Below are positions 22,369 through 24,453 of a DNA stretch of 34,739 nucleotides, piece by piece. The notes under the pieces are model-generated. The model worked only from the letters and a program-made list of their open reading frames with translations. It was not told the origin of the DNA and did no database searches. The translations under genes and the position numbers were made by a program. Positions within the stretch are counted from its first letter, which is position 1. Each line of letters starts with the position of its first letter. The stretch lies in contig JADIMS010000083.1 of the NCBI GenBank assembly GCA_017694555.1, forward strand, positions 1 through 34,739. The letters are read 5' to 3'. The DNA comes from Candidatus Avitreponema avistercoris (lineage in GTDB: Bacteria; Spirochaetota; Spirochaetia; Treponematales; Treponemataceae).

Positions 22369-22498
22369 TATACTGCGGAAAAAAGAAAAAGCAAATAGTT
22401 GTGCGTGATGGATTTTCATGCCTGTGCGCCTTCCGTGTATTCCCCGGCGCGCTTTCCGGTTGATATGCGTACCGCCGGAAACTGTACCGGTCTGTCTG

Positions 22499-22529
22499 TT
22501 GACAGAAGCAGGTTGGGGGGGGGTAAACT
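22499..22529 (+). promoter_or_regulatory. Promoter with a nine-G tract in the spacer
   Basis: A consensus TTGACA (22499-22504) and TAAACT (22524-22529) are separated by 19 nt, of which the last nine are G (22515-22523). Loss of one or two G would give the preferred 18- or 17-nt spacing, so slippage in the tract could switch the promoter. Predicted start near 22536, before the GGGAGG ribosome site at 22549-22554. Confidence 0.5.
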
Positions 22530-22561
22530 GCCTGTATCTGCCAGTATACGGGAGGCACAGC

Positions 22562-23191
22562 GTGAAACGCTTTTTGATTTGCGGGTTATTGTCGGTCTTT
22601 TTCCTTTCCGGCTTGTGCGCCGGGCCGTTCGGCCTTTCGATGGGCATGAATCTGGACGAAATCCGGGATGCGTGCGGCGGCGTGCGTCCGCAAAAAGCGG
22701 CTGAATTCGATTTTGATTTCGGTGACGACGTGTATGTTATTTCCCCGGAGAAAACACACTCCGCTTTTGATGTTTATTTTGCCCGTGTGAATGAAAACGC
22801 CGGGCTTTACCGGATAATTGCAGGCGCTGACGCAATTCCCGATACCGACTACGGGGAAAATGTCAAAAACAGGTTTTATTCCGTTGCGGAAAGCATTTCC
22901 AAAACCTACGGGAAGCCGGAACTTACCGATGCATACCGGGGCGAACGGGGTCTCTTTGACGGGGCTTCCGATTGGATGACGGCGCTGACACGGGGCGACC
23001 GCGTCCTGGAGGCGCTGTGGCTGGCGGAATCAGGACAAGATCTTCTCCCCGGGGATGTCGCCGGAATTTGGCTCAAAGCAATCGGCATTTATTCTGGAAG
23101 CAGTACATCCGGTTATGCCGGAGCGTTGGTCTTGCGCTATGACTTCGCCAACGGGGCAGCGGTTGCGGAACAGGAAGAGAACGTCTTTTAG
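22562..23191 (+). CDS. Exported protein of unknown function
   Basis: A 209-aa protein not recognised by family. The start is GTG with GGGAGG about 7 nt upstream. A signal peptide (about residues 1-20, VKRFLICGLLSVFFLSGLCA) is clear; it could be cut by signal peptidase I after LCA or lipidated at the Cys. The mature part opens with FGLSMGMNLDEIRDACGG, a start seen in small secreted proteins that begin with a strand and helix. It then alternates acidic and aromatic strands without Cys pairs or catalytic motifs I can name. The last nine codons are repeated 570 bp downstream. Expression may be controlled by the poly-G promoter. Confidence 0.72.
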   Translation: MKRFLICGLLSVFFLSGLCAGPFGLSMGMNLDEIRDACGGVRPQKAAEFDFDFGDDVYVISPEKTHSAFDVYFARVNENAGLYRIIAGADAIPDTDYGENVKNRFYSVAESISKTYGKPELTDAYRGERGLFDGASDWMTALTRGDRVLEALWLAESGQDLLPGDVAGIWLKAIGIYSGSSTSGYAGALVLRYDFANGAAVAEQEENVF

Positions 23192-23215
23192 GCGCAGTGC
23201 AAAAACGGCCGCGGC
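23163..23215 (+). repeat. 53-bp direct repeat, copy 1
   Basis: Starts inside the codons for the last nine or so residues of the exported-protein gene and runs past its TAG stop to the GCGGC at 23215. It matches 23733-23785 at 51 of 53 positions, including 42 identical bases in a row (23174-23215). Confidence 0.95.
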
Positions 23216-23285
23216 ATAAACAGGCATGAGACATAAAACCTGTCGACATATTCCAAGAGAATTCTATGATGAATGGGAGGGAAAA

Positions 23286-23732
23286 ATGAGTATTAAATAT
23301 ATTTATTCGGTATTTTGCTGTATTTTGGTGCTGGCATTTTCCTCTTGTGCGACGTTATCTTCGTCTAACCCAAGAACATTAAATTTAGACGGATTAATAA
23401 TTTCGGAAACGGAAACAGATGAAGGCTTTACATCATGGTGTTGCGTTGATTATTTTGCTGAGCCTCCAATATTTTCAAATATACTCGTTGAAGCAGGATA
23501 TTTTGAAAAAAACGGCGTAAGATACGGATTTATCCTCTATGACGGGGGAGACATTGGCCAGATGGCCTTTTTTTCCAGGGACGGTCTGGACTACAGATGG
23601 GACTGGGGTTCTGACATGGATTATTGTCTTACCATAGCACCGGACGGTACTGCCTTTTATTTCGATTTCTCAACAGTTCCTGATGGAGAACCGGCAAAAG
23701 CCCGGGATATTTTTCAAACCTATAAGCGGTAA
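23286..23732 (+). CDS. A+T-rich small lipoprotein of unknown function
   Basis: A 148-aa predicted lipoprotein: MSIKYIYSVFCCILVLAFSSC with acceptor Cys21, then a Ser/Asn linker and a beta-rich domain with many aromatics and acids (for example YRWDWGSDMDYC). No family is recognised. Base composition is clearly richer in A+T than all neighbours, with codons such as ATA, TTA and AAT that are rare around it, suggesting recent transfer. GGGAGGG lies five nt before the ATG. The stop codon TAA directly abuts the second 53-bp repeat, so the gene occupies a 570-bp unit bounded by the two repeats. No promoter was identified in the 94-bp gap. Confidence 0.75.
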   Translation: MSIKYIYSVFCCILVLAFSSCATLSSSNPRTLNLDGLIISETETDEGFTSWCCVDYFAEPPIFSNILVEAGYFEKNGVRYGFILYDGGDIGQMAFFSRDGLDYRWDWGSDMDYCLTIAPDGTAFYFDFSTVPDGEPAKARDIFQTYKR

Positions 23733-23785
23733 TTGCAGAACAAGAAGAGAACGTCTTTTAGGCGCAGTGCAAAAACGGCCGCGGC
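23733..23785 (+). repeat. 53-bp direct repeat, copy 2
   Basis: Begins right after the lipoprotein stop codon. The two differences from copy 1 are both G to A (opposite 23167 and 23173) and are synonymous in the frame of the upstream exported-protein gene. The copy therefore keeps the coding pattern AEQEENVF-stop without being attached to a gene. Confidence 0.95.
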
Positions 23786-23903
23786 GGCAACTTTCCGCTG
23801 CCGTTGCGTATAAAAATAAATACCCCGTTCCCACCCTCGCAAGGCCAACCGGTATCCGGTATTAACAATTCACGGTATGTATGCGCTTTCGGTTTTTCCG
23901 TGC

Positions 23904-23923
23904 TATACTTTCTGCCGGAGGGG
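23904..23923 (+). promoter_or_regulatory. -10 box and ribosome site of the VOC gene
   Basis: TATACT at 23904-23909 predicts a start near 23916, directly at the GGAGGGG ribosome site (23917-23923), leaving a leader of about 13 nt. No clear -35 box. Confidence 0.4.
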
Positions 23924-23928
23924 ATGTT

Positions 23929-24312
23929 ATGCATATCGATCACGCCGCCATGTACGTCAACGATCTGGAACGGGCGAAGGATTTTTTTGTACGTTATTTT
24001 TCGGCAGAAGCGGGCGCCGGTTACCATAATCCGGTTACCGGCTTCCGGTCCTATTTCCTTACATTCAGCGGTGGATGCCGGCTGGAACTGATGAACCGTC
24101 CCGGAATGGATGATGCGGAAAAAACGTCTGCGCGGACGGGATTCATCCATCTTGCCTTTTCTGCCGGAAGCCGGGAAGCGGTGGATGCGCTGACCGGAAG
24201 ACTGCGCGCGGACGGCTATGAAACGCTCAGCGGCCCCCGCGTAACCGGCGACGGGTATTACGAAAGCAGCGTGCTGGGTATCGAAGGAAACGTGCTGGAA
24301 ATCACGGTATAG
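23929..24312 (+). CDS. Glyoxalase/VOC-family protein
   Basis: A 127-aa protein of the vicinal-oxygen-chelate superfamily with two beta-alpha-beta-beta-beta modules. Metal-ligand positions look intact: H5 in the opening HIDHAAMYV, a Glu in CRLELM, His in FIHLAF and the terminal Glu in GNVLEITV. Members include glyoxalase I, fosfomycin-resistance enzymes and dioxygenases; the substrate cannot be chosen from sequence. I chose the ATG at 23929 for the ribosome site five nt upstream and the canonical N-terminus. It lies alone between the repeat-flanked cassette and the TetR-controlled cluster. Confidence 0.85.
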   Translation: MHIDHAAMYVNDLERAKDFFVRYFSAEAGAGYHNPVTGFRSYFLTFSGGCRLELMNRPGMDDAEKTSARTGFIHLAFSAGSREAVDALTGRLRADGYETLSGPRVTGDGYYESSVLGIEGNVLEITV

Positions 24313-24345
24313 CACGGAAAGTAACACATTTTTTCCTTATTCTTG

Positions 24346-24374
24346 TTGACATTATGTCAGAATACCGTTATATT
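24346..24374 (+). promoter_or_regulatory. Promoter of the flavodoxin-tetR cluster
   Basis: Consensus TTGACA (24346-24351), a 17-nt spacer and TATATT (24369-24374). The predicted start is near 24381, leaving a leader of about 73 nt. One palindromic operator overlaps the -35 box and spacer, and a second covers the start site. Confidence 0.75.
24347..24359 (+). promoter_or_regulatory. Operator 1, probable TetR-family site
   Basis: A perfect 13-bp palindrome TGACAT-T-ATGTCA overlapping the -35 box. It is part of a 21-bp motif (24344-24364) repeated 37 bp downstream with one change. The nearby tetR gene makes its product the obvious binder; this is inferred. Confidence 0.65.
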
Positions 24375-24383
24375 CTGTTTTGT

Positions 24384-24396
24384 TGACATTGTGTCA
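24384..24396 (+). promoter_or_regulatory. Operator 2, probable TetR-family site
   Basis: TGACAT-T-GTGTCA, the same palindrome with one mismatched pair, placed just after the predicted transcription start. Binding at both sites would block polymerase binding and escape. Confidence 0.65.
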
Positions 24397-24453
24397 GAAT
24401 ATTATCCGCAGCGGATAAAACAAAACAGAACGGAATATGCAGGGGAGGAACAG

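Follow-up and report, generated by a model that had tools for sequence, protein, structure and literature searches.

The question raised by this locus is how a single lipoprotein gene came to stand between two copies of the 3' end of a neighbouring gene that is itself still intact. The window, by which we mean the whole stretch of 34,739 nucleotides analysed here, comes from Candidatus Avitreponema avistercoris, whose genome is a fragmented metagenome bin (1.87 Mb, 169 contigs, 80% complete).

A lipoprotein gene between two copies of a gene end

The locus comprises the following features, in which G001 denotes a related Treponema genome described below:

22471-23935, + strand: gene 1 block (gene 1 and its downstream region), 94-96% DNA identity to G001 once the 570-bp unit is subtracted
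22562-23191, + strand: gene 1, coding for a 209-aa exported protein (signal peptide recognised by eye), 3' end duplicated, still intact; no Pfam, NCBIfam or PHROG match
23163-23215, + strand: repeat copy 1, the end of gene 1 (8 codons, part of a ninth and the stop) followed by 24 bp of downstream sequence; same as the single copy of G001
23216-23732, + strand: inserted unique DNA, 517 bp, G+C 0.40, missing from G001
23243-23270, + strand: promoter-like site TCGACA-16-TATGAT, in the insert and upstream of the lipoprotein gene, recognised purely by its fit to the consensus (10 of 12 positions)
23286-23732, + strand: lipoprotein gene, 148 aa, lipobox ending in Cys21
23733-23785, + strand: repeat copy 2, with two synonymous-type G-to-A differences in its first 11 bases; native downstream sequence, as in G001, follows
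23786-23935, + strand: native sequence downstream of gene 1, which at the G001 empty site adjoins the 53 bp without a break

The original prediction, made from the sequence alone, had reported a 53-bp repeat with a spacing of 570 bp and 51 of 53 positions identical, and comparison of the window with itself recovers this pair (23163-23215 against 23733-23785; BLAST E 4e-18, well outside chance expectation) as the only direct repeat of its kind. Within the 169 contigs of its own genome, the 53-bp repeat is present twice only. As had also been noted, the second copy begins right behind the lipoprotein stop codon (TAA, 23730-23732), which directly abuts it, and the two differences (23737 and 23743, which are positions 5 and 11 of the repeat) are synonymous G-to-A changes in the frame of gene 1 (GCG to GCA and CAG to CAA). 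Repeat positions 12-53, a tract of 42 bases, are the same in both copies.

The repeats enclose 517 bp of foreign-looking DNA (40% G+C, against a mean of 55% for the window genes) with the lipoprotein gene as the only ORF. The odd base composition that had been claimed for this gene holds up against the 27 other genes of the window: its G+C is 0.405 against 0.553 (sd 0.039) and its GC3 0.362 against 0.622 (sd 0.069), z being about -3.8 in both cases, and the second-lowest gene of the window stands at a G+C of 0.464. The insert contains no recombinase, integrase or transposase, and no inverted repeat pairing its ends was found, so that we do not class it as a transposon or an insertion sequence.

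The lipoprotein family is sporadic, being found in 7 of the 145 family genomes, its own included. Searches with the lipoprotein gave no match in Pfam, NCBIfam or PADLOC, and the two PHROGs recovered, both of unknown function, stayed below threshold; there was no match in phages, plasmids or viral contigs, and none was found by peptide patterns in genome contigs. An Rfam search gave no credible match. A single-sequence AlphaFold model of the protein is beta-rich, with a mean pLDDT of 44, and is too poor for use.

An empty site in a related genome

The genome of a congener, an uncultured Treponema (G001, CASGBA010000020.1), has the gene 1 site with one 53-bp copy and without the lipoprotein gene. 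The sequences to the left and to the right of the window's pair of copies are joined directly in G001, whose single copy is identical to copy 1. The window and G001 are an exact pair of filled and empty sites and, since the G001 site has one copy and joined flanks, these two related genomes differ in the presence or absence of the 570-bp unit.

An exact search of ~85,000 species genomes with the 31-bp core of the repeat found one other genome only, the same CASGBA010000020.1, at the empty site, and the core was not found in viral contigs. The arrangement is therefore not fixed in all relatives, as G001 has zero units, while the repeat was not found beside different genes, which the original prediction had also thought worth looking for. 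G002 is without the gene 1 block altogether and no outgroup carries it. Insertion and a precise loss between the repeats could each have produced this pair of one filled and one empty genome; the foreign composition of the insert favours a gain of the unit.

The surrounding block and its history

Homologues of gene 1 occur in 30 of the 145 family genomes. Compared with G001, the gene 1 block differs at only a few positions per 50 bp, except in a divergent patch of 200 bp (22671-22870). The adjacent core genes, which from inspection of their sequences we take to be those of alpha-2-macroglobulin and penicillin-binding protein 1C, have only ~70% DNA identity to G001 and are located elsewhere in G001 and G002; the neighbours of the block in G001, identified by eye, are presumably a DUF1275-like gene and an IS3-type element. 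Since the block reaches 94-96% whereas the core genes stay at ~70% and lie elsewhere, the block has probably moved recently between these lineages. On this sequence comparison, which includes the divergent patch, the history of the gene 1 block is probably one of recent horizontal transfer and mosaic recombination, and the lipoprotein unit is probably nested within mobile accessory DNA. Because the block appears both recently shared and mosaic, we regard recombination as active at this locus.

Several other features of gene 1 and its surroundings were observed. A run of nine G (22515-22523), ~40 bp upstream of gene 1 and kept in G001, could make expression of gene 1 phase-variable. The gene 1 homologue of G119 presents a mirror image of the window case: 56 bp of its 5' end, encoding the signal peptide, are duplicated 398 bp away (L015 2009-2064 and 2407-2462), and an unrelated small lipoprotein gene now begins with the other copy. 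Downstream in the window, two near-identical 22-bp repeats, TTGTTGACATTRTGTCAGAATA (24343-24364 and 24380-24401), each with an internal TGACATTRTGTCA dyad, lie upstream of a flavodoxin and a TetR-type gene and are possibly a TetR operator, and a perfect 14-bp inverted repeat, TTTCCGTGCTATAC (23895-23908 and 24307-24320), brackets a glyoxalase-family gene.

A second locus at the aconitase 3' end

In another Treponema, G051, a relative of the lipoprotein gene (carrying an in-frame stop), a DUF gene and VapBC lie between two copies of the aconitase gene end that are identical at 45 of 45 positions. In G035, the aconitase end runs straight into the sequence found behind copy 2 of G051 (182 bp, 90%, across the right junction), and the left flank is continuous up to the aconitase stop codon. 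As the G035 junction matches the G051 flanks, the aconitase locus again offers a filled and an empty site. The same unit as in G051 is present in G077, on a contig of 2.73 Mb that is close to complete, with most of vapC lost, apparently at a CATT microhomology. G077 has, in addition, a second unit, which is delimited by a 158-bp copy of the aconitase end with 96% identity and encodes a C5 methyltransferase, an IceA/REase_II-type nuclease and an HTH regulator. The duplications thus differ in length, with 53 bp in the window, 45 bp in G051 and 158 bp in G077. The recurrence in G051 and G077 of the lipoprotein-DUF pair also seen in an integron cassette of G115 suggests a functional, possibly defence, module.

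The region behind the aconitase gene is a hotspot, where as many as three copies of the 3' end of the gene surround toxin-antitoxin and restriction-modification units:

L048 8377-13299: aconitase hotspot of G077
L047 8504-10966: aconitase hotspot of G051

Orphan gene-end duplications were rare in a survey of ~700 kb (mainly the window, 20 contigs of its own genome and 400 kb of G077), in which the window and the G077 aconitase locus were the clear cases, a figure that is not an unbiased rate since the G077 stretch was picked because it held a lipoprotein relative. The stretches read around the lipoprotein relatives of G066, G093 and G096 contained no flanking gene-end duplication. The parallel between the two loci, which rests on one lipoprotein family and was found by searching with that family, is suggestive.

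Proposed course of the probable insertion

Insertion with long target duplication is, we think, the probable way in which the 570-bp unit, made of 517 bp of foreign A+T-rich DNA and one 53-bp copy, reached the 3' end of gene 1. The original prediction had put forward the gain of a cassette through recombination between the 3' ends of genes, and this is supported by the empty site of G001 and by the independent aconitase case with its own empty-site relative.

In the donor, which would be either a circle or a piece of some related locus, the lipoprotein gene would already have been linked to a gene 1-type 3' end. A single crossover in the 42 identical bases would then insert the donor and duplicate the shared stretch; gene 1 would stay intact on the left, and the variant 3' end of the donor (GCA, CAA) would become copy 2. 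The variant bases of copy 2 lie only on the insert side, which fits a crossover within this tract, with the donor giving the left part of copy 2. That copy 2 came from a related full gene, as had been suggested, is possible given that both differences fall within repeat positions 1-11, but neither an allele of gene 1 carrying the GCA and CAA codons nor a donor molecule was found. The lipoprotein gene probably has its source in a low-G+C cassette gene pool of Treponema, in which its relatives adjoin TIR/SLATT or NERD genes in integron cassettes, and it looks like an accessory, possibly defence-associated, passenger.

Both RecA-type recombination and a trans-acting enzyme are candidates for the agent. 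General homologous recombination is the most likely, and the event may perhaps have been a homology-facilitated illegitimate recombination of taken-up DNA. Direct repeats of such a size would also allow the unit to be lost by recombination. The placement at gene 3' ends at both loci would be explained by selection for an intact upstream gene, and a site-specific integrase or recombinase would also yield it.

Insertion with long target duplication was described for restriction-modification genes of Helicobacter pylori (Nobusato et al. 2000, as cited in PMC1643837, PMC3874152 and PMC3031569). It has in common with our loci the filled and empty sites in related genomes, the long direct target duplication that is single at the empty site, the variable length of this duplication (in the range of tens to a hundred bp) and the absence of a transposase, and the aconitase locus of G077 bears a restriction-modification unit, which is the classical cargo. 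The window departs from it in its host, a Treponema, in its target, the 3' end of a horizontally shared gene, and in its cargo, a lone lipoprotein gene without restriction-modification genes, whose association with such insertions is typical and not strictly defining. The window locus is probably a fresh example of this pattern described in Helicobacter, and a relative of its lipoprotein gene appears to have been inserted likewise elsewhere in Treponema.

Alternative explanations

Integrative elements (tyrosine-recombinase IMEs, prophages) insert in the 3' ends of genes and restore them, and the window insert is likewise flanked by a duplicated 3' end of its target gene, with the gene intact. 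In a site-specific integration, the 53 bp of the window and the 45 bp at aconitase would be att sites through which an integrase supplied in trans integrates a very small, non-autonomous element; this would account for the duplication of 3' ends at two unrelated targets, for the keeping of the upstream gene and for the sharp ends of the insert. However, the unit measures only 570 bp and has no recombinase gene, the 53-bp and 45-bp repeats have no obvious motif in common, the duplications vary in length between cases, and the 53-bp core was found at no other locus in the ~85,000 genomes. We consider this reading unlikely, if worth keeping in view. A previously unrecognised trans-acting system of Treponema, which would put very small recombinase-free units at the 3' ends of unrelated genes with duplications of 45-160 bp, drawing on the integron gene pool and with the lipoprotein family as a recurrent cargo, seems to us quite unlikely.

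The original prediction had also proposed the remains of a tandem surface-protein array, in which gene 1 and the lipoprotein gene were followed by a further gene 1 paralogue that was later deleted save for its last codons. Differences in copy 2 that are synonymous in the frame of gene 1 are expected of the end of a former working gene, and the divergent patch in the gene 1 block indicates that other alleles exist. But the deletion would have had to stop exactly at the lipoprotein stop codon, and neither further copies, nor pieces of a paralogue, nor a multi-unit array of the repeat were found; besides, at the parallel aconitase locus the copies are identical and a relative has the site empty, and whole aconitase genes standing in an array would be hard to justify. 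The array proposal is not borne out by these data and we judge it improbable.

The source contig belongs to a fragmented metagenome bin, and binning or the assembler might have joined different strains at the 53-bp repeat. Since the two copies differ at two positions, both flanks agree with an independent assembly and a like structure is present in the nearly complete contig of G077, such an artefact is very improbable.

In other treponemes, both genes have relatives in integron cassettes: those of the lipoprotein gene lie in G115, together with ThsB-type TIR and SLATT genes, and in G096, next to a NERD gene, and a gene 1 homologue lies in G016, next to a NERD-like gene. The window unit is like the chromosomal integron gene cassettes of Treponema (PMC3607928) in having these relatives there and in consisting of one short gene with a short repeat, and unlike them in that its repeat has no attC fold and no integron integrase was detected in its own genome. 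In a folding comparison, the 53-mer gave z -0.8 to +0.5 against z -5 to -13 for the Treponema attC controls of G077 and G115 (one G016 site gave z -7), and it was rejected as an attC; the 45-mer aconitase repeat showed no fold in the same comparison, and a scan for the motif RYYYAAC...GTTRRRY missed its own positive controls and was discarded. A search for the integron integrase found no TIGR02249 match over the curated cut-off in the window's own genome (G000, 80% complete), G001 and G002. Typical integron cassettes are promoterless, whereas the window unit has its own promoter-like site. That the locus is an integron gene-cassette array, with the 53-bp repeats as attC sites behind each cassette gene, is thus scarcely credible despite the relatives in cassettes and the array-like gene-repeat-gene-repeat layout, since the 53-mer has no stem-loop, overlaps coding sequence, is unlike every Treponema attC sampled, and belongs to a genus without IntI above that cut-off.

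In the G115 cassette (L049 7290-10158), 66-bp attC-type repeats enclose a ThsB-type TIR gene, a SLATT gene, the lipoprotein relative and a DUF gene.

Significance of the probable insertion

The window and G001 form a clean pair of filled and empty sites for a gene that was probably gained with neither a transposon nor an integron, and a relative of this gene provides a parallel case at a different target. Together they suggest that insertion with long target duplication extends beyond restriction-modification genes and beyond Helicobacter. The length of the repeats, the identical tract available for the crossover and the aconitase hotspot place constraints on any recombination or integrase model, so that the mechanism is testable. 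The lipoprotein family, common to such insertions and to integron cassettes near defence-type genes, is a candidate for functional work.
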